A stretch of 42,989 nucleotides of DNA from a virus: positions 1 to 42,989 of IMG/VR virus record IMGVR_UViG_3300042868_004485; one strand, written 5' to 3'. A program made the translations under genes and the position numbers. Of this stretch, positions 4,946 through 42,989 are shown one piece after another (the first letter of the stretch is position 1; every line of letters starts with the position of its first letter). The notes under the pieces were generated by a model. That model worked only from the letters and a program-made list of their open reading frames with translations, had not been told where the DNA came from and did no database searches.

Positions 4946-5166
4946 CAGTTAGCTCCAACGATTTCCTGTGCAATGACGTACGACATCTGAAGAACAAACC
5001 CGCGCTGTACTTCTTCCGACTGTTGAAGCCACCACGTAAACAAAGACGTGCCATCAACACCGTATGTGCCGATGATGTTATTGTCACTGTCGGTGATGTC
5101 ACCAAAGATACGCCAATCAGTGGATGGTGCAGGTTCCTTCACGACCGAGAAGTTTACAAAGTTCAT
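4945..5166 (-). CDS. Small fibre-cassette protein, copy 1
   Basis: This 73-residue protein is a paralogue of the one at 2458-2685: both have DWxxFGDITDxDxNIxGTxG, a tryptophan pair (FTWWLQQ) and a C-terminal VIAQEI helix. It lies directly upstream of the 694-residue fibre gene with a one-base stop/start overlap. The start has GGTGGGC just upstream and overlaps the previous gene by 4 bases. Its function is unknown; the conserved position suggests work with the adjacent fibre. Confidence 0.7.
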   Translation of the reverse strand: MNFVNFSVVKEPAPSTDWRIFGDITDSDNNIIGTYGVDGTSLFTWWLQQSEEVQRGFVLQMSYVIAQEIVGAN

Positions 5167-5417
5167 TTGCCCACCTTTAGTGCATTCATCTGCGTCCCGG
5201 AGAACGGCATCGTGAGGAACGCCAGCACACTACTTACCGCAGCGGAGACACCCGCCGCTACCGCCTTGCTGCCGTAGAGTGCCAGCACTGCGCCCAGCTC
5301 GGCAATGTCCTTCGCTTCGCTTGTCCTGATGCCATCACCGAACACGGAAGTAAAAGCAGCTACAAAAGCCACGATCACAACGACCACTAACCGCTTGATG
5401 CTTATCTGTAAATTCAT
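5163..5417 (-). CDS. Holin-like small membrane protein
   Basis: This 84-residue protein has two hydrophobic segments, about residues 9-27 (LVVVVIVAFVAAFTSVFG) and 43-70 (small-residue-rich, AVAAGVSAAVSSVLAFL), and a short basic tail. The size and topology fit two-TM holins, which form pores that release endolysin. The second segment resembles that of the 111-residue protein two genes upstream (RAGVPAVITAIIAFFI), so the pair may be holin and antiholin or duplicated holins. The endolysin candidate lies about 10 kb away on the other strand. Confidence 0.5.
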   Translation of the reverse strand: MNLQISIKRLVVVVIVAFVAAFTSVFGDGIRTSEAKDIAELGAVLALYGSKAVAAGVSAAVSSVLAFLTMPFSGTQMNALKVGK

Positions 5418-15720: not shown

Positions 15721-15933
15721 ATGAACAACCACGACAAACGCGCACAGGAGCTGCTTGAGTTAATCATTGCAGCTTCTTGTGAAGCAAAGTACCTGCGCTT
15801 CCATGGCCGCATAAACTCACGTATTGAAATGGAGTTAGATGATGCGGCTGGACTACTTAGGGTAGACACCGCAAACATCGCAAAAGAACAGAAAGATAAA
15901 CCATCCTTTCTCAGGAAGTTTGGTTTTCGCTAA
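15721..15933 (+). CDS. Small hypothetical protein before cytosine methyltransferase
   Basis: This 70-residue, mostly helical and charged protein (KRAQELLELIIAASCEAKYLRF, IEMELDDAAGLLRV) is preceded by AGGGGAAAACAT. Its TAA overlaps the ATG of the methyltransferase (TAATG), so the two are translationally coupled. It has no recognised domain; an accessory role for the methyltransferase is possible but unproven. Confidence 0.6.
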   Translation: MNNHDKRAQELLELIIAASCEAKYLRFHGRINSRIEMELDDAAGLLRVDTANIAKEQKDKPSFLRKFGFR

Positions 15934-17036
15934 TGCGCTATCTGAGCGTATGTAGCGGCATTGAAGCCGCAAGCGTTGCATGGGAGTCTCTTGGTTGGAC
16001 TCCTGTTGCTTTTTCAGAAATAGAAAAGTTTCCATCTAAGGTATTGGCGCACAGGTTTCCAAACGTCACTAACCTTGGAGATATGACACGTTATAAGGAG
16101 TGGAATATTGAAAGAGGTTCAGTTGACCTTATTGTCGGAGGAACACCCTGTCAAGCTTTCTCAATCGCAGGACTACGCAAAGGGCTTGACGATCCACGGG
16201 GAAATCTCGCACTCACTTTCATTGCAATGGTTGAACACTATAAACCCGAATGGGTCGTATGGGAAAACGTCCCCGGTGTTTTGTCAAGCAACGGAGGACG
16301 GGACTTTGGTTCCTTCCTTGGGGCGTTGGGGAACATCGGGTATGGGTTCGCATACAGAGTGCTTGACGCTCAGTACTTTGGAGTCCCCCAGCGAAGGCGT
16401 AGAGTCTTTGTTGTCGCACATTCTTCAGGGGACAGCAGACGTGCAGCAGAAGTATTATTTGAGCCAGAAAGCCTGCGAGGGGATACTCCGAAGAGCAGAA
16501 AAACGGGGCAAGACACTGCCCAATGCCTTACGACAGGCACTGGTTGCAGGTACGACCCAGACACCGAAACCTTGATACCTATGATGTATTCGGTTCGTGA
16601 AGATGCCAAGGCTAACAACTTCAGTGCCAATAAAAGTGATGTTGCAAACTGCATTCAGTCTATGCAACCAGCTACGACCAGCCATCATGCAATCAACTAC
16701 GTGGTTCATCCAGCCCATGCGTTCAAGATACGCGGTGTTGGGCATTACACCGGTACAAACGGCGGGGTAGCAAAGCCTGGAACCGGCGGCAGTGGTTACA
16801 TGGGGCAGGATGAAAAAGCCTACACTATCGCAACCTCACAGGATCAGCAGATAATGCACGGCATGACAGTACGGCGGCTAACACCCACCGAGTGTGAACG
16901 GCTTCAGGGTTTCCCAGATGGCTACACCGACATCATGCCAGATACTCCAGACGGACCAAGGTACAAGGCACTCGGTAACAGCATGGCTGTACCCGTCATG
17001 CGCTGGATAGGGGAAAGAATTAATGAACATAGCTAA
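15933..17036 (+). CDS. DNA (cytosine-5) methyltransferase
   Basis: This 367-residue, full-length C5 methyltransferase has motif I LSVCSGIEAASVAWESLGW, motif IV GGTPCQAFSIAG (catalytic Cys about 73), motif VI WENVPG (111-114), motif VIII QRRRRVFVVA (153-162), motif IX RRLTPTECERLQGFPDGY and motif X YKALGNSMAVPVMRWIG. The target-recognition region lies roughly at 185-305 and its site cannot be read. No restriction enzyme is nearby, so it is an orphan enzyme, probably shielding phage DNA from host restriction. Its end overlaps thyX by 14 bases. Confidence 0.93.
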   Translation: MRYLSVCSGIEAASVAWESLGWTPVAFSEIEKFPSKVLAHRFPNVTNLGDMTRYKEWNIERGSVDLIVGGTPCQAFSIAGLRKGLDDPRGNLALTFIAMVEHYKPEWVVWENVPGVLSSNGGRDFGSFLGALGNIGYGFAYRVLDAQYFGVPQRRRRVFVVAHSSGDSRRAAEVLFEPESLRGDTPKSRKTGQDTAQCLTTGTGCRYDPDTETLIPMMYSVREDAKANNFSANKSDVANCIQSMQPATTSHHAINYVVHPAHAFKIRGVGHYTGTNGGVAKPGTGGSGYMGQDEKAYTIATSQDQQIMHGMTVRRLTPTECERLQGFPDGYTDIMPDTPDGPRYKALGNSMAVPVMRWIGERINEHS

Positions 17037-17667
17037 ACTGGTAACGATTACGCCAGACGCAGAAGCACACATCGCCTACTGTGCTCGCGTGTCATCACCA
17101 AACCAAGAGAATCCAGAGATCACACGACTTCTCAAGTACTGCATTAACCACAAACACTGGAGCATATTTGAGATGGCACACATGGTTGTTGAAATAAAGA
17201 CGTCACGTGCTATTGCTGCTCAGATTCTTAGACATCGATCGTTTTCATTTCAGGAGTTTTCACAAAGATATGCTCCTGTACCATCAGAACCACCGCAGGT
17301 CATTGGGATGCAACGCCTTGCTGGCTCACACAACCGCCAATCAAGCTTGCCATTACCAGAGTGGGAAGAACTTACAGATCAACAACAATTAGTGCTTATT
17401 CGGGCAGATGACGTAGTCAAAAGTGCTTACACTGTGTACAACGACTTGTTGCAATCAGGGTTTGCCACAGAAACAGCACGAATGATTTTGCCTTTGGCAA
17501 CACCGACACGCATGTACATGGCTGGAAACATCCGAGATTGGTTGCACTACGTTGACTTGCGAATGCAAGACGATACACAACTTGAACACAGGAAGATCGC
17601 CGGCGACATCAAACTTATCATCGAAGAACAGCTGCCAACAATCTACGCAGCCATGTGGGGGAAATAA
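17023..17667 (+). CDS. thyX: Flavin-dependent thymidylate synthase ThyX
   Basis: This 214-residue protein has the ThyX signature RHRSFSFQEFSQRY (about 70-83). Further family stretches are HWSIFEMAHMVVEI and TRMYMAGNIRDWLHYVDLR. It makes dTMP from dUMP using methylenetetrahydrofolate and FAD. It sits between the cytosine methyltransferase and the dUTPase with overlaps on both sides, so the two nucleotide enzymes form a coupled dUTP-to-dTMP route that raises thymidine supply for phage DNA. Confidence 0.96.
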   Translation: MNIAKLVTITPDAEAHIAYCARVSSPNQENPEITRLLKYCINHKHWSIFEMAHMVVEIKTSRAIAAQILRHRSFSFQEFSQRYAPVPSEPPQVIGMQRLAGSHNRQSSLPLPEWEELTDQQQLVLIRADDVVKSAYTVYNDLLQSGFATETARMILPLATPTRMYMAGNIRDWLHYVDLRMQDDTQLEHRKIAGDIKLIIEEQLPTIYAAMWGK

Positions 17668-20202: not shown

Positions 20203-20288
20203 AAGAACATTCTCCTTGCTATACAAGCGCAACCTGTTATAGAATAGTGTAACGTATTTTGATGCTATCACGGCATATTAGGGGCAAT
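20203..20288. promoter_or_regulatory. Divergent promoter region
   Basis: This 86-base gap lies between the leftward MuF-like gene and the rightward small-protein cluster. Plus strand: TTGCTA, a 16-base spacer, then TATAGA; ribosome binding site AGGGGC lies before the ATG at 20289. The same stretch is a broken dyad (CTATA...TATAG arms), so it may also serve the minus strand or bind a regulator. Positions are tentative. Confidence 0.35.
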
Positions 20289-20513
20289 ATGACAGACAAA
20301 ACTCCACGCACCCGCAGGGATTACCTGTGGGCACATCAAGAAATCCTTGCTGGTCGCAAGGTCATGCGCTTTGAAGCTCGTTGGTTTGTACAGATGGTAG
20401 ACAAGCGCATGTGTACTTACCGTATTGACGGAGGCAACAACCGAGTATTCATCGGTATTACGACACTAAATTCAGCGGATCTTATGGCCCTTGATTGGGT
20501 TACATGCGAGTAA
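20289..20513 (+). CDS. DUF2829 / Tad2-like small protein
   Basis: This 74-residue protein is counted from MTDKTPRTRRDY because AGGGGC precedes it. It has the compact DUF2829 pattern: an opening helix and strand AHQEILAGRKVMRFEARWFVQM (compare ALxxGKKVxRxxW) and the closing NSADLMALDWVTCE (compare D-L-L-A-x-D-W-E). DUF2829 includes Tad2, which sequesters the cyclic signalling molecule of Thoeris defence. The same closing motif ends the protein at 20847-21275. The match is by pattern only, so an anti-Thoeris role is a hypothesis. Confidence 0.55.
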   Translation: MTDKTPRTRRDYLWAHQEILAGRKVMRFEARWFVQMVDKRMCTYRIDGGNNRVFIGITTLNSADLMALDWVTCE

Positions 20514-20544
20514 ATATATCTACAGGACAGAGGGAGATTGTTTT

Positions 20545-20847
20545 ATGACAAAGATATTTATACAAGATAACGGGTTTGACTTTCCATCGCATTGGCGGGA
20601 GACCTACGAAGTCTGCGACGATCGTGGATACGGCGCCAAAGTTGCTGAATATGAGCAAGTCATCATCGGTGCAGTCATCCAAGAGATGCGTAACGTCAAG
20701 CATGGCACACTGCAGCCAGAAGCACATCACCAGGCAATCCTTGACATGGTTAAGGATCTGATTGAAACAACGGTAGTAGACGAATGGCTGGAGGAGCTTA
20801 CACAAATCCTTAAAGACTTCAATTACGAGATTGCGTACGAAGACTAA
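20545..20847 (+). CDS. Small acidic hypothetical protein
   Basis: This 100-residue protein is counted from MTKIFIQDNG (AGGGAG upstream). It is acidic and mostly helical after residue 30 (VAEYEQVIIGAVIQEMRNV, QAILDMVKDLIETTVVDEWLEELTQILKDF). It lies between the two DUF2829-like genes, with a TAATG overlap to the second, so all three are probably made together. The family is not recognised; the size and acidity are compatible with an inhibitor, but nothing proves it. Confidence 0.6.
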   Translation: MTKIFIQDNGFDFPSHWRETYEVCDDRGYGAKVAEYEQVIIGAVIQEMRNVKHGTLQPEAHHQAILDMVKDLIETTVVDEWLEELTQILKDFNYEIAYED

Positions 20848-21275
20848 TGGATAAACGAAGAAAACTAACCCCTGAGCAGGCAGATGAAGTGCTTGCAATG
20901 GTTGACAAAGGCATGACGTTAGAGTCAGTTGGTAGGGCAATGGGTGTCAGTACTTCGCACGTCCAACGATTGCGAGCAACACACAACAAAGGTGAAGTTA
21001 AAGCTAAACCTACGTCTCTGTCTAGCTGTATGAAGTTTATTGCGAAAGGATTTCCGTTTAAGCGTGTTGGCTGGGATAACTACTTCTACTTCTATGACAC
21101 CGACAACTCCTGGTTCATAAAGTACAGGTATGTAAGTGACCACGGGGATGATTACGAAATCATTATGTATACGCTTGACTTGTCCCTGGAGTCATTGATG
21201 GCAAAGGACTGGGTTGTACTTACATGGGATGCAGTAAGTCATTTTCATGGATGCAACAAAAAGGTAGTCGAATGA
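20847..21275 (+). CDS. Helix-turn-helix fused to DUF2829 / Tad2-like domain
   Basis: This is a 142-residue protein. Residues 5-45 look like a helix-turn-helix (LTPEQADEVLAMVDKGMTLESVGRAMGVSTSHVQRLRATH). Residues about 60-128 match DUF2829: MKFIAKGFPFKRVGWDNYFYFYD (compare ALxxGKxVxRxGW) and LDLSLESLMAKDWVVLT (compare DLLAxDWExV). Such a fusion would join DNA binding to a possible ligand-binding fold of the Tad2 type, so the protein might regulate its operon in response to a nucleotide signal (inference). It overlaps the upstream stop (TAATG). Confidence 0.55.
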   Translation: MDKRRKLTPEQADEVLAMVDKGMTLESVGRAMGVSTSHVQRLRATHNKGEVKAKPTSLSSCMKFIAKGFPFKRVGWDNYFYFYDTDNSWFIKYRYVSDHGDDYEIIMYTLDLSLESLMAKDWVVLTWDAVSHFHGCNKKVVE

Positions 21276-21290
21276 CTAGGGAGTATATTT

Positions 21291-21536
21291 ATGATTAGTA
21301 TATTTACGGGAATACTAATTGGTATAGCAATCTGCTATGCAGGTAGTCTGATCTATGACATCGTCAAGTTTTACAACTTCAAGGCTTGGCTACGAATGAA
21401 AAATGTAGACATTGAAAGCATGGACAAAGAGGACATGCGTGCAGCCATGACAGCTTACAACCTACGTAAAGTACCCAACGTCATTGTCGAATTGATTCCA
21501 GATCCAGATAGCGTGGATGACAAGGAAGTAGAATAG
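21291..21536 (+). CDS. Small single-span membrane protein
   Basis: This 81-residue protein has one N-terminal membrane segment (residues about 3-25, IFTGILIGIAICYAGSLIYDIV) and an acidic cytoplasmic tail ending DSVDDKEVE. The ribosome binding site AGGGAG precedes ATG. It is the last gene of the 20.3-21.5 kb rightward cluster, directly followed by a long inverted repeat. Its function is unknown; it might place the cluster's action at the membrane. Confidence 0.6.
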   Translation: MISIFTGILIGIAICYAGSLIYDIVKFYNFKAWLRMKNVDIESMDKEDMRAAMTAYNLRKVPNVIVELIPDPDSVDDKEVE

Positions 21537-21586: not shown

Positions 21587-21668
21587 GTTGTAAAGAAATC
21601 CTTTATAACTTATACTTCGGATGGCAGGGAAACCTGACTACGTTTGAACAACAACTGCTCACAAAGAG

Positions 21669-21699
21669 AAAGACCATCGTTTGCCCGGTGGTCTTTTTT
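21669..21699 (+). terminator. Rho-independent terminator of the rightward cluster
   Basis: AAGACCATCG pairs with CGGTGGTCTT (one G-T wobble) around a six-base loop, and a run of six T closes the site on the plus strand. It lies between the convergent membrane-protein gene and adenine methyltransferase gene. Read the other way, the stem is followed by TTTCTCTTTG, so it may stop both. Confidence 0.85.
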
Positions 21700-21721: not shown

Positions 21722-22894
21722 CTACCTTTCCAACGCGTGCCTTATCCTAGCTTCAGCAATCTTGTAGTACTGCTCATCCATCTCGCAGCCAATGAAGTCA
21801 AACCCATCGAGCATAGCTGCTTTACCAGTAGTGCCGGAGCCCATGAATGGATCCAGTACTGTGCCACCAGGCTGTGTCACAAGACGACATAGGTAACCCA
21901 TAAGATCCACCGGTTTTACTGTAGGGTGGATGTTCCCATGCTCATCTAAGTCGCGATCCTTCTTCCCTGCCTTAGAACAGTAGAAGAAGCGTGCAGCGGA
22001 TCCCATAGAAGAGTCAGTTTGACCAGAGCGCACATAACCTGTAGGCTTACCGTCGTTATTGAAGTGCCTCGCACCATCGGTGCGAACCCATGAACCACCT
22101 TTGGTATTAGGGAACAGATCAAGCACCTGCTGCGATCCATCATGGATGAAGTTAGCTGGCCATCTACCTAACGGGTTAGCAGGGTTAGCACCGCTAAGGT
22201 CACTGCTGTTCTTCCAGCTGTTATCCATAACACCGCCACGCTGACGTATCTGGTCCACACCCTTAGACAGCTTCTCGTAGTCATCCGCATCCATAGGTAC
22301 ACGGCAAGCATCTATATTCATGCCGCCGGTCCCATACTCAAGCACATTCTTAGCAATAGTACCTATCAATGGTTTCCGGGCTACTGTGATCGGCTCCAGT
22401 GAAGGTTTAAGAGAACTACCCCAGCCTTCCCACTTCTTAGCATCATCTGACTTAGCCTCATACGGAGGCACAGGATTACTAGTAAGCTTATTCTCCTGAT
22501 TCACATCAGACGCCTGGTAACTACTAGCAGTAGGGATAGCCTTACCCCGATTACCATGACCATGCAACTTATCAATCGACACAGACACATTATGAGACTT
22601 AGGGAACCCACTCCCATAAACCCAAGCAATCATGTCCCGTATCTCAAAACCAGCATCCTCAATATTCACAGCCATACGATGCTGAGTACGAGTGCCAGCA
22701 AACGCTAACAAGTAACCACCAGGTTTCAACACACGTAAACACTCACGCCACACATCCACAGAAGGAACATCGTAGTCCCACTTCTTACCCATGAAACTCA
22801 AACCATAAGGAGGATCACACACAACACTATCAACACTACAATCCTCCAACAAACCCATCCCATCCAAACAATCCCCTAACAACAACCTATACAT
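21722..22894 (-). CDS. DNA methyltransferase, beta class (N6-adenine or N4-cytosine)
   Basis: This is a 390-residue protein. Motif IV DPPYGLSFMGKKWD (27-40) comes first, then the central target-recognition region (about 100-310), then motif I VLDPFMGSGTTGKAAM and FIGCEMDEQYYKIAEARI at the end. This order defines the beta class, and DPPY favours N6-adenine. No restriction nuclease is adjacent. With the C5 enzyme at 15933 it probably gives the phage DNA a double methylation shield. The start has a clear GGGGAG, and a 22-bp inverted repeat lies 50 bases upstream. A short stem GGTTCC/GGAACC overlaps its stop. Confidence 0.92.
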   Translation of the reverse strand: MYRLLLGDCLDGMGLLEDCSVDSVVCDPPYGLSFMGKKWDYDVPSVDVWRECLRVLKPGGYLLAFAGTRTQHRMAVNIEDAGFEIRDMIAWVYGSGFPKSHNVSVSIDKLHGHGNRGKAIPTASSYQASDVNQENKLTSNPVPPYEAKSDDAKKWEGWGSSLKPSLEPITVARKPLIGTIAKNVLEYGTGGMNIDACRVPMDADDYEKLSKGVDQIRQRGGVMDNSWKNSSDLSGANPANPLGRWPANFIHDGSQQVLDLFPNTKGGSWVRTDGARHFNNDGKPTGYVRSGQTDSSMGSAARFFYCSKAGKKDRDLDEHGNIHPTVKPVDLMGYLCRLVTQPGGTVLDPFMGSGTTGKAAMLDGFDFIGCEMDEQYYKIAEARIRHALER

Positions 22895-22945
22895 ATATCT
22901 CCCCTATACCCATACACATCAACCGACCCTTATACTAATTAGACT

Positions 22946-23013
22946 ATATATATACAAAGAAGTAAGATTTTTTAAGATGTATTTTTTAAACTCTTACTTC
23001 TTTGTATATATAT
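22946..23013. repeat. Perfect 22-bp inverted repeat, AT-rich
   Basis: The left arm at 22946-22967 and right arm at 22992-23013 are exact reverse complements (arm core TACAAAGAAGTAAGA). The 24-base spacer holds TTTTTTAA twice. It lies upstream of the adenine methyltransferase and can extrude as a cruciform. Candidate roles are a bidirectional terminator shielding the methyltransferase from the island, or an origin element. Confidence 0.75.
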
Positions 23014-23053
23014 TTAAATATATAAGGGACCCCAAAAGCTACGCAAGATGACA

Positions 23054-23095
23054 AACTGAAAATAGATCCAATATACATATCTATTTTTACCAGTT
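23054..23095. repeat. Bulged inverted repeat
   Basis: AACTG plus AAAATAGAT (23054-23067) pairs with ATCTATTTT, a three-base bulge, then CAGTT (23079-23095), across an 11-base loop. It sits 40 bases from the larger 22-bp inverted repeat; together they make a structured AT-rich patch typical of origins or regulatory loci. Confidence 0.55.
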
Positions 23096-23788
23096 GCCTC
23101 AGAGCTTGTGACATAACGACAGGAAGCGAAAGTGAGAAAATTGGTGTGTTACCTATTGCGATCGCGCGATTTCGTTTTTGTTACACTCCTCTTCTGTGTG
23201 ACATATGGAAATGGATGCATAACCGGCAGGGGCAGGTATTTACCAGATACGGGCATATTCGCGATCCTATTAACCGGGATAGCTGCAGGGAACCTTGAAT
23301 AAAGGAGTGGAATTATTACGTTATCTGCAGCATGTATAACGGCCGTTAGAGTACAAATTTAAGGAATTGAGAATGTTACACCTTGACTGTAGAAAATGAC
23401 GCTACACGCGAGATTCTAGGCATGTATGGCATGTAACCGGTTAGCAGGCATAACGGGCCCGTACGGGCGATATAGCGGCCCGTGCGGCTGCAGGTGGTGA
23501 TACGTGCAGCTGCATGCAGTCAAGGATATACACGCGCGCATTATGTCAAGGTGTAGCTGCATCATGTGAAGGATCGCGGGCATGCAGTCCAGGCGCGAGA
23601 TCGATAGCTGCACCTGGTGTGAACCTGGATAACAGGTAGCATGCGGGCCGTATCGTATCCAGGTACCACGGGCGGGCATTATCCAGGTATCGCATGCATG
23701 CCTAAATTAGGCGGGTTATACCGTGATAGCTGCAGCGGGCCAGTATCGGCATAATGGGCCGCGTACGGGCCGCTGTGGAGTCCAGGAT

Positions 23789-23812
23789 CGCGTACCCGGT
23801 TGCATGCTGCGG
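23789..23812 (+). repeat. 24-bp direct repeat flanking the island operon, left copy
   Basis: Identical over 24 bases to 26719-26742; the core is GTACCCGGTTGCATGCTGC. A shorter relative (GCGTACCCGGTTGC) occurs at about 24414, inside the operon. The outer pair encloses the whole seven-gene operon and its terminator, like borders of an inserted segment; the generally repetitive wording of the island is the alternative explanation. Confidence 0.6.
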
Positions 23813-23827
23813 AGAATATCGGCAGGC

Positions 23828-23856
23828 ATAAAAATACCCGCGTGGTATGCGCGGGT
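23828..23856 (-). terminator. Terminator of the island operon
   Basis: ACCCGCG (23836-23842) pairs with CGCGGGT (23850-23856) around a seven-base loop; on the minus strand the stem is followed by ATTTTTATG. It lies 25 bases after the last island gene. Confidence 0.8.
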
Positions 23857-23880
23857 TTAAGTGTCTGTTATCGGTTGCTG

Positions 23881-24138
23881 CTAGACTGTTATAATTCCGG
23901 GCCGCCCGTACACTCCGTCAAGGTGTATAGAGCGGCCGCGAATTTCTATCCTGCTATCACGGCCGATGCAGTCGCTACACGTGAATTCAGTACCGATGCA
24001 GTCCAGACACCGGGCCGTATCATATACGGCCGATATAGCGACCTTGTGTGATATGCGGGTTATACCATTCGGTGTAATTAACCGGATATAACGCGATCCT
24101 TTAATTAAGTCTATCGCCCGCGCAATTTCAGTTTTCAT
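23881..24138 (-). CDS. Small protein with two CxxC pairs
   Basis: This 85-residue protein is counted from MKTEIARAID (GGAG upstream); longer in-frame starts lie inside the preceding micro-gene. It contains RCLDCIGTEFTCSDCIGRD, i.e. C-x2-C, six residues, C-x2-C, which could bind zinc. Basic residues (SRYIRLITPNGITR, SRIEIRGR) surround it, so nucleic-acid contact is possible. It is the last gene of the island operon, just before the terminator. No known family was recognised. Confidence 0.6.
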   Translation of the reverse strand: MKTEIARAIDLIKGSRYIRLITPNGITRISHKVAISAVYDTARCLDCIGTEFTCSDCIGRDSRIEIRGRSIHLDGVYGRPGIITV

Positions 24139-24238
24139 TTCTAGACTCCAGTAATTCCAGGGCATGCCACAATTCATAGAATGCTACCGCGGCAAATGCC
24201 GCGATAGCTGCAACAATCGAACCAAGTAGAATTAGCAT
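24128..24238 (-). CDS. 36-residue predicted membrane micro-protein
   Basis: The translation starts MLILLGSIVAAIAAFAAVAF and ends YELWHALELLESRNEN. The first 20 residues are one uninterrupted hydrophobic span and the rest is a charged tail. Its ATG shares one base with the TGA of the upstream gene (TGATG), and its end overlaps the start of the downstream gene by 11 bases, the tight packing seen in translated operons. A GCGGCA/TGCCGC dyad lies inside. This is a plausible holin-like, toxin-like or regulatory peptide; expression is unproven. Confidence 0.5.
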   Translation of the reverse strand: MLILLGSIVAAIAAFAAVAFYELWHALELLESRNEN

Positions 24239-26624: not shown

Positions 26625-26718
26625 GCGAGATAGAAAAAATAAGCTTGTTAACACAATTACAGCGTGATTTACTCGCGTTATGCATACCTATAAATTGCGG
26701 CCGCATATCCTAAATTCA

Positions 26719-26742
26719 CGCGTACCCGGTTGCATGCTGCGG
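26719..26742 (+). repeat. 24-bp direct repeat flanking the island operon, right copy
   Basis: Exact copy of 23789-23812 in the same orientation, 95 bases upstream of the operon promoter. The sequences beyond the 24 bases diverge on both sides. Confidence 0.6.
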
Positions 26743-26780
26743 GCATTTCTAACCCGTGCGTGCGATCCTAGCGGGCCGTT

Positions 26781-26818
26781 ATACCTGCAACCTGGATACC
26801 TGCAACCTGGATACCTGG
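26781..26818 (+). repeat. 15-bp tandem repeat, 2.5 copies
   Basis: The unit ATACCTGCAACCTGG is repeated exactly at 26781 and 26796, followed by a partial ATACCTGG. It is iteron-like in spacing but short; it lies in the gene-free right flank of the island. Confidence 0.7.
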
Positions 26819-27149
26819 ATAGCTGCAGCTGCACCACGGCCCGCTATATCTGCGGCATGTATCGCTGCATTATCGCTGCAGATCCCGACAAAAACGGCCT
26901 AGGGATCTCAGATAAAAACCCCTCGCGGACGCGCCAGCGCACATGCACGCACTCAATGCGACGCAGATGTAGAAGCGATCACACATCCCAGCACACACAC
27001 ATACATCCACACATACAACACATACACGGCGGGAATGTTTTACGTATCCCTCTGGCCCGCGAGGGAGCTGAGAGCGGCTCCCGTGTATTGCGATCGTTTC
27101 CTGTCCTGGCGTCTCGGTTGCTCGCATTCGTCCGTTTTGCAGATCCAAA

Positions 27150-27188
27150 CAAAAGGAAAAGCACGGCGGGCCAATTGCCTACCGTGCT
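27150..27188 (-). terminator. Rho-independent terminator ending the early operon
   Basis: AGCACGG (27182-27188 on the minus strand) pairs with CCGTGCT (27160-27166), the inner loop can add GGC/GCC, and TTTTCCTTTT follows. It lies 70 bases after the last gene of the leftward early block. Confidence 0.75.
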
Positions 27189-27229
27189 CTGTGTGTGTTG
27201 CGTACGCTCACTATGTACGTACACGCGCC

Positions 27230-27248
27230 TCCGTCCGTCCGTCCGTCC
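27230..27248. repeat. GTCC tetranucleotide repeat
   Basis: TCC followed by four GTCC units lies just beyond the stop of the zinc-ribbon orphan gene. A second GTCC x3 tract is at 27861-27872 on the other side of the same gene, so the gene is bracketed by the same microsatellite. Confidence 0.7.
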
Positions 27249-27257
27249 CTTTTCTTT

Positions 27258-27746
27258 TTACTGCTGCATCCAATTTTCTGCATGCTCACAATGTGCGATG
27301 AACCTACTCCATTCAGGTGGACAGGATCTACTTAGGAAAGTAGTAGCACGTTCACGGCGCCCGGTGATCGGTGCGTCAGCTTCCATATCCTCTGGGAGGA
27401 TGTGCCATGAATCGATGGACATGTCTGTAATACCGATGTGCGTTTCTTCCAGATTCCCGGTCGTATCATCGGTGACTAGAGTTACCAACCGAGCACGATC
27501 AAAGTACATGTACATCGGTGCGCGGCCGGTCGGGATAACAGAGTATCTAACCAGGATGGATCCTGACCACATCTTGCCCATTCCACTAAAGAATGTCTCA
27601 CGACCCGCATCCTGAAGCAACGCCTTGAGCTTCTCGTCATACGTGACAGGTTCTGGGTCACGATGTGGCTGCAATAACATGCACTCAATACACGTCCCGT
27701 TGTACAGCTGTGATGCTGGAATTCCGCACTTAGAACACTTTTCCAT
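27258..27746 (-). CDS. Hypothetical protein with N-terminal zinc-ribbon half
   Basis: This 162-residue protein is counted from MEKCSKCGIPA (GAGGG upstream). It opens with CSKCGIPASQLYNGTCIEC, a C-x2-C, 12 residues, C-x2-C zinc ribbon. The rest is beta-rich (ILVRYSVIPTGRAPMYMYFDRARLVTLVTDD) and ends with a helix (WSRFIAHCEHAENWMQQ). It is the last gene of the early block before a terminator, flanked by GTCC repeats. The family is unknown; DNA or RNA contact is plausible. Confidence 0.6.
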   Translation of the reverse strand: MEKCSKCGIPASQLYNGTCIECMLLQPHRDPEPVTYDEKLKALLQDAGRETFFSGMGKMWSGSILVRYSVIPTGRAPMYMYFDRARLVTLVTDDTTGNLEETHIGITDMSIDSWHILPEDMEADAPITGRRERATTFLSRSCPPEWSRFIAHCEHAENWMQQ

Positions 27747-42218: not shown

Positions 42219-42635
42219 CTATAAGTTACTGACGAATATTCGCCAGGTTCGTCCAACTGTACGCCAATATACTTGACCATCACCAACTTCGATTGTAGAT
42301 GGTACTACACCCGACGATCGGCATATTACGCGATACCCACTGTACGTCTCGTTTGCATTTATTAATGCAGTATCTATCACATCCATTGCGTTGTACATGT
42401 TGTCGTCGTCTACTCCAGCAAAACCAACGACCAACACGTGAAATTCAATAAATGCTCCTTGCCTGTGTCCAGCTTCTAGGTCATATCCACCAATCTCTTC
42501 AATGATGACATATGGACTTCTGGCATCCTGAACAGCCAAGTCTTGGTATACACCACTAACAAAATTCAATACTGTTGTGGCAGCAAGCTTACTATTAATC
42601 CACTGCCTTGCTAACCTAGGTTCGTATATGCTCAC
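42219..42635 (-). CDS. Tail completion / terminator protein
   Basis: This 138-residue protein has an N-terminal helix (LARQWINSKLAATTVLNFVSGVYQDLA), then PYVIIEEIGGYDLEAG, a central strand IEFHVLVVGF and a helix with DNMYNAMDVIDTALINA, ending in VYWRTVGRTWRIFVSNL. This follows tail terminators of the lambda gpU / DUF3168 type, which cap the tail tube and meet the neck. It starts with GTG overlapping the gp10-like stop. The place between gp10-like and tail tube genes supports it. Confidence 0.7.
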   Translation of the reverse strand: MSIYEPRLARQWINSKLAATTVLNFVSGVYQDLAVQDARSPYVIIEEIGGYDLEAGHRQGAFIEFHVLVVGFAGVDDDNMYNAMDVIDTALINANETYSGYRVICRSSGVVPSTIEVGDGQVYWRTVGRTWRIFVSNL

Positions 42636-42989
42636 GGTAGTACCTGCCTGATTGTGTCACGAACAATACGTGCCACATTGTCTTTCTGTTCTACCATTGC
42701 CTTGGTTAGGAAGGGGTTACCAGGATACGCCACAATAGGTGCTTTGTGACCGTTGTGCAGGAAGATGGCGTAGTGGACGTCATTACCTACCCAGTTTGGT
42801 CCATGCGGATCTGCAATGACTTCAGCTACAAACTTACTTACTTTACGCCCACGGATGCTTTGCACAAGTTTGCCAGATGCTATGTTTGTACCTGCGTGCC
42901 GTTTAGCACTCTGGGCTACTTGTTGTGCGGCTGGTCGCAAGCCGGTAGAGACGCCACTCTTTATACTGAGTGACACTCCTCTAACGTTG
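42614..42989. repeat. Terminal direct repeat, right copy
   Basis: Partner of positions 1-376, same orientation, eight substitutions and no gaps, all silent in the gp10-like reading frame. Confidence 0.9.
42632..42989 (-). CDS. HK97 gp10-like neck protein, second copy cut by the window edge
   Basis: The residues encoded are identical to those of the full gene at 19-399, but the first codons lie beyond the end of the window. If the ends are joined, only one gp10-like gene exists in the genome. Confidence 0.85.
   Translation of the reverse strand, partial: NVRGVSLSIKSGVSTGLRPAAQQVAQSAKRHAGTNIASGKLVQSIRGRKVSKFVAEVIADPHGPNWVGNDVHYAIFLHNGHKAPIVAYPGNPFLTKAMVEQKDNVARIVRDTIRQVLP

Follow-up and report, generated by a model that had tools for sequence, protein, structure and literature searches.

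An operon of an uncultured phage was found to encode two proteins with a predicted Tad2 fold, one of which carries an N-terminal helix-turn-helix (HTH) domain, and the same slot in related phages was found to hold two to five divergent Tad2-like ORFs. Tad2 is a small viral sponge for bacterial immune signals and occurs mostly as one copy per phage. The operon is read here, tentatively and as a serious possibility short of a probable one, as a compact, self-regulated anti-defence version of a variable Tad2-like array, in which the HTH-Tad2 protein would resemble an Acr-Aca fusion. The whole stretch of DNA analysed, referred to below as the window, is IMG/VR record IMGVR_UViG_3300042868_004485 (42,989 bases). 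The features of the operon are as follows.

20216..20275, + strand: conserved promoter or 5'-leader block, TTGCTA-N18-TAGAAT and then AGTGTAACGYATTTTGATGCTATCACGG, with a sigma70-like site
20289..20513, + strand: P1, a 74-aa stand-alone protein with a predicted Tad2 fold (AF2 model, structural matches, dN/dS)
20545..20847, + strand: acidic orphan of 100 aa (ORF), overlapping the next gene (TAATG)
20847..21275, + strand: HTH-Tad2 protein of 142 aa (ORF, Pfam, AF2 model)
20847..21002, + strand: N-terminal HTH domain of HTH-Tad2, residues 1-52 (Pfam and structure)
21003..21227, + strand: C-terminal Tad2-like domain of HTH-Tad2, residues 53-127 (structure; PF11195 in relatives)
21291..21536, + strand: small membrane protein of 81 aa, last gene of the operon, with the N-terminal hydrophobic helix MISIFTGILIGIAICYAGSLIYDIV read from the sequence
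21668..21699, + strand: intrinsic terminator with a 12-bp stem and a U run (fold -19.2 kcal/mol)

All four genes are on the + strand and are spaced as one operon, and the fold energy of the terminator was compared with that of shuffled sequences (z -5.0; 0 shuffles equally stable). An earlier sequence-only reading had placed an acidic orphan between the two Tad2-like genes and a membrane protein after them; both were present, the membrane-protein gene starting just beyond the end (21275) of the interval which that reading had marked. The four ORFs are true genes under purifying selection, because homologues with low dN/dS were found in other phage contigs. Relative to contig L004, dN and dS were 0.018 and 0.36 for P1, 0.029 and 0.36 for the acidic gene, 0.037 and 0.44 for HTH-Tad2, and 0.026 and 0.18 for the membrane-protein gene; dN/dS for P1 was about 0.05-0.13. 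The acidic gene is 71-100% identical among syntenic phages with the HTH-Tad2 fusion, and its product had no family match. In L002, L004, L012, L013, L014, and L038, too, the array ends with a homologue of the membrane protein.

Other observations were made across the window. DNA methyltransferases of C5-cytosine and N6/N4 type (15933-17036 and 21722-22894) bracket the accessory region with its ThyX-like gene (17023-17667), dUTPase, and calcineurin-like phosphoesterase. A convincing long ORF was seen on neither strand in 22900-24200 and 26660-27260, and Rfam gave 0 matches across the window. Between the two ends of the record (1-376 and 42614-42989) there are 8 mismatches in 376 bases (97.9% identity); although the record is classed as linear, this is probably a terminal repeat, or an overlap left by circular permutation of the genome, with variation between strains.

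Structural comparison was performed with AF2 models of both Tad2-like proteins (pLDDT 81 for P1 and 71 for HTH-Tad2). Ten of the best 11 structural matches of the P1 model were Tad2 entries (Z 6.5-7.7), the match to SptTad2 having a Z of 7.7 over 64 aligned residues at 2.7 A, and the next unrelated match had a Z of 4.0. Residues 1-49 of the HTH-Tad2 model matched the HTHs of Tc3, resolvase, and paired-domain proteins (Z about 7), and residues 53-127 matched SptTad2 (Z 6.9, 67 aligned, 2.3 A), SPO1 Tad2 (Z 6.4), HgmTad2/AcrIIA7 (Z 6.4), and ModTad2 (Z 6.3). By computation on these models, P1 was shown to have a predicted Tad2 fold and HTH-Tad2 to consist of an N-terminal HTH and a C-terminal predicted Tad2 fold. 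Z values of such size are modest taken alone, and the assignment was made because the matches are consistent and Z drops sharply to the next unrelated entry. The Pfam model HTH_23 matched the N-terminus of HTH-Tad2 (E 1.1e-4), below the Pfam cut-offs in the window; relatives matched HTH_7 with E values down to 3.7e-9, those of L008, L024, L025, and L029 above its cut-off. Two proposals of the sequence-only reading thus held: two Tad2/DUF2829-like genes are present, the models of both aligning best to solved Tad2 structures, and the second copy has an N-terminal HTH, on which Pfam and structure agree.

Membership in the Pfam family PF11195 (DUF2829; gathering cut-off 25 bits) was scored separately. 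Residues 61-124 of HTH-Tad2 gave 13.9 bits (E 0.08), below the cut-off, and P1 had no Pfam match and so did not reach it. Seven of the eight first-round relatives of HTH-Tad2 matched PF11195 (best E 5.8e-5), the more distant relatives scanned also matched it, mostly over about positions 4-72 of 73, and single array members in related phages scored 25.8-37.6 bits. As a PDB profile search with full-length HTH-Tad2 was dominated by HTH matches, the C-terminal domain was used alone instead; against all PDB sequences it gave four matches at E up to 10, all of them Tad2 (E 1-2). In hhalign comparisons with 12 canonical phage Tad2 domains, the HTH-linked domain aligned with a probability of 94% (E 9e-8) and the array members with 98% (E 1e-13); P1 reached 66% over just 15 residues. 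The window proteins are divergent relatives with the Tad2 fold and by cut-off are not PF11195 members, and a DUF2829 profile search, which the sequence-only reading had named as a check, gave a match below the cut-off for HTH-Tad2, no match for P1, and matches above the cut-off for homologues that occupy this slot in related phages. That reading had also called the genes twins. Their Tad2-style ends are alike beyond chance (DLMALDWV at the C-terminus of P1; GFPFKRVGW and SLMAKDWV in HTH-Tad2), but profile similarity between the two proteins resides mostly in the C-terminal DW motif, and they belong to a larger family as divergent members, not as close twins.

Related loci, all from uncultured phages, were retrieved through P1, HTH-Tad2, and the MuF-like gene that flanks them; the phages brought up by a scan from the methyltransferase side were mostly unrelated. 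The slot between the MuF-like head gene and the DNA methyltransferase was found to be an operon with two to five divergent Tad2-like ORFs, a variable array that the sequence-only reading had overlooked. Two such ORFs were counted in the window and in L002, three in L004, four each in L013, L026, and L038, and five each in L008, L012, L021, and the G007 phage (L132); P1 and the HTH fusion are counted in, and the profiles used derive in part from these very sequences. In independent scoring with PF11195, 18 of 20 related records matched, with up to five matches each and 11 records above the cut-off; 1 of 14 well-known control genomes matched. Across the interval from thyX to the methyltransferase, the genes that L004 and the window have in common show 93-100% identity, and still L004 has one additional Tad2-like ORF (5041-5265), placed after HTH-Tad2 and before the membrane gene; array content therefore turns over quickly. 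In L012, L013, and L038 the fusion is missing and a separate HTH-type ORF of 89 aa (Recombinase PF07508, 22.6 bits) stands directly before Tad2-like ORFs, so that every syntenic array examined has an HTH, fused or stand-alone. Inside the L012 array, between P1 and the next gene, lies a 145-aa ORF (L012:6222-6659) that by eye is like a GNAT-type acyltransferase.

Conserved-peptide scans found the HTH-Tad2 fusion in 16 further IMG/VR records, with identity down to 33-34%; besides the MuF-methyltransferase slot, it occupies two or more further contexts. An assembly or frameshift artefact was excluded as the source of the fusion by this recurrence. The arrangement had been described as not textbook, which is right, yet it is conserved. 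At the sensitivity of tblastn, neither the 50,697 phage records nor the 72,556 plasmid records searched yielded the fusion, its relatives were not found in the genome collection by two peptide-pattern scans, and a described HTH-Tad2 fusion was not found in the literature searched. The fusion was thus found here solely in IMG/VR, absence elsewhere being at limited sensitivity and not proof. Among the phage records, the nucleotide search gave 0 matches, as did tblastn with P1 and with the L024 fusion, and tblastn with HTH-Tad2 matched mainly the HTH part, in mycobacteriophages. Two candidates from these searches were rejected: Squirty gp62, which looks like two HTH motifs without a Tad2-like end, and a Megaera plasmid match, in which an HTH is present and a Tad2-like end is missing.

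Phages with several Tad2-like genes are already known; an HTH-fused Tad2 in arrays of up to five is a new arrangement at the search sensitivity used. Four PF11195 matches were counted in SpaA1, two of them adjacent, and four also in Lactobacillus phage Iacchus; in such phages the copies are scattered or paired and do not form one operon of up to five, and an HTH fusion was not seen in the multi-copy DUF2829 phages looked at. N-terminally extended phage Tad2 proteins (ECBP1, R01, Lb, Rg507, BS-TP1) had no HTH by Pfam. A 169-aa protein of Ruminococcus phage phiRg507T2_3 (gp19; L146:343-849) was observed to have two Tad2-like stretches in tandem. With the known PF11195 proteins (SPO1 gp34.65, ModTad2, SptTad2, and HgmTad2, which is AcrIIA7), the window proteins have in common the fold (Z 6-7.7), a start of the form helix-G-x-x-hydrophobic-R/K-x-x-W, a DLxAxDW end, and the setting of a small phage protein amid a cluster of small genes. 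They differ in scoring below the cut-off, in the HTH fused to one copy, and in the several divergent copies per operon of their relatives. Acb4 (PF13876) and other sponge genes cluster in the accessory region of SPO1-like phages (PMC11722364), a grouping like that of the small genes here, for which a sponge role is a candidate one; the Acb4 fold is unrelated, whereas the recognisable candidates in the window all belong to one fold family.

Pocket motifs were compared between 43 sequences of the branch studied and 12 canonical phage Tad2 sequences. The gcADPR pocket of Tad2 is built from helix alpha3, strand beta4, and the beta1-beta2, beta3-beta4, and beta4-alpha3 loops; for dinucleotides, binding depends on an insertion between beta2 and beta5 (PMC12043709). 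WNGK, after the first strand, was present in 0 of 43 branch sequences and 10 of 12 canonical ones, and W..S..D..A.DW, before the last helix, in 1 of 43 and 11 of 12; both window proteins are without either motif. By our own mapping, the two motifs would lie in the pocket-forming beta1-beta2 and beta4-alpha3 loops. Spacing from the first W to DW was mostly 35-54 residues in the branch and 53-74 in canonical Tad2, the HTH-Tad2/P1 branch being shortened between strands 2 and 3, i.e. after beta2. Binding of gcADPR is not to be assumed, because the signature motifs are missing and the stretch that follows beta2 is shorter, and gcADPR is not the predicted ligand on present evidence. A different ligand is possible, since the Tad2 family already uses gcADPR, His-ADPR, and cyclic dinucleotides (PMC12043709, PMC13299392). 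This variety, the fold in common with SPO1 Tad2, ModTad2, SptTad2, and HgmTad2, and the array relatives above the PF11195 cut-off are consistent with a view in line with the sequence-only reading, in which the array members are true messenger sponges (for Thoeris gcADPR or His-ADPR, or for CBASS dinucleotides) and the HTH is only an added regulator; the loss of both motifs and the mostly shorter spacing count against it, and we consider it unlikely, if still worth weighing. From that reading the predicted Tad2 fold of both proteins, the HTH fusion, and an operon of the type of anti-defence loci survive; the direct link to Thoeris and gcADPR is not supported.

The preferred reading, that of a self-regulated anti-defence array, takes in the regulatory features as well. 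From the computed fold, HTH fusion, operon layout, arrays, and conservation we infer an anti-defence role, autorepression, and ligand diversity. The promoter block at about 20216-20275 would start the four-gene operon and the terminator at 21668-21699 would close it; the array may be a cassette for anti-defence, in which the small molecules or host-defence partners bound differ from member to member and genes are swapped as hosts change. HTH-Tad2 would be an Aca-like autoregulator, its HTH binding the conserved block before P1 and so limiting a burst of early expression, and its Tad2 domain may provide oligomerisation and/or anti-defence or ligand-binding activity. The block (TTGCTATACAA...TGTTATAGAATAGTGTAACGYATTTTGATGCTATCACGG) is nearly invariant in nine phages, among which P1 identity falls to about 47%, and a single copy of its 30-nt core was found in each of 14 IMG/VR stretches, which all come from the same phage group; in the window the core occurs once. 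An HTH domain in a protein of the operon, as in Acr-Aca-type loci, was found in HTH-Tad2 by Pfam and structure. An HTH and an anti-defence domain are combined in one autorepressing protein in AcrIIA15 (PMC10901769) and in AcrIIA11, AcrIIA15, and AcrIF24 (PMC13131331). These resemble HTH-Tad2 in joining a DNA-binding HTH to a domain of anti-defence type, and the aca genes resemble the related loci in having stand-alone as well as fused versions of the HTH; they differ in that there is no known sequence relation, the partner domain here is Tad2-like and not a Cas inhibitor, and autorepression here is putative. Against the preferred reading stand the missing canonical motifs, the lack of any clear or convincing operator palindrome in a search ahead of P1, and the presence of the block also in phages with a stand-alone HTH in place of the fusion; the sigma70-like site, taken alone, is not above chance. 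Low dN/dS, the members tested giving no sign of positive selection, also counts against it, as does the setting: two methyltransferases, a dUTPase, and ThyX make an accessory or metabolic region, and none of them is a dedicated anti-defence marker.

A rather unlikely alternative is that the Tad2 fold serves phage regulation or protein-protein interaction outside defence, HTH-Tad2 being a DNA-binding regulator of the ordinary kind whose small second domain serves dimerisation. This agrees with the HTH and with PHROG 643 ("transcriptional regulator", 84 positions), which weakly matches SPO1 Tad2 (E 8e-4) and all eight HTH-Tad2 members (best E 0.0015); it leaves unexplained up to four divergent stand-alone copies per operon and their fast gain and loss. 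PHROG 643 may itself, judged from these profile matches, be an unrecognised Tad2-like family.

Somewhat more doubtful still is a one-component sensor, in which the Tad2 domain would bind a host immune messenger produced on infection and release or engage the HTH at the operon promoter, so that a diversified operon of Tad2-type sponges would be on only when defence fires. The order of N-terminal HTH and C-terminal ligand fold is typical of many one-component regulators, the fusion has been kept in the 16 further records and at least three genomic contexts, and the promoter block is strongly conserved; the pocket motifs, however, are lost, and a plain autorepressor works without a ligand. If true, this would be defence-triggered counter-defence.

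A role for P1 as a minor head or neck protein, unrelated to Tad2, is very improbable: the eleventh of its top matches, ranking alongside Tad2, is the phage 812 neck protein (8qkh chain s; Z 7.5, 72 residues), and a MuF-like head gene adjoins P1, but the other ten matches are all Tad2, P1 lies on the strand opposite to the structural genes and the same as the array, and its DLMAxDW end is common to P1 and the array. The neck-protein match is also noted for itself, as the Tad2 fold may exist in virion parts.

A conserved HTH fusion, and operons holding as many as five divergent Tad2-like ORFs, suggest either a set of proteins that bind different immune messengers or a regulator able to sense such messengers, and the array is a natural variant set ready for ligand screens. 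The loss of the pocket motifs means that the Tad2 fold reaches well beyond the gcADPR-binding set, so the label "Tad2-like" is not to be taken as "anti-Thoeris".
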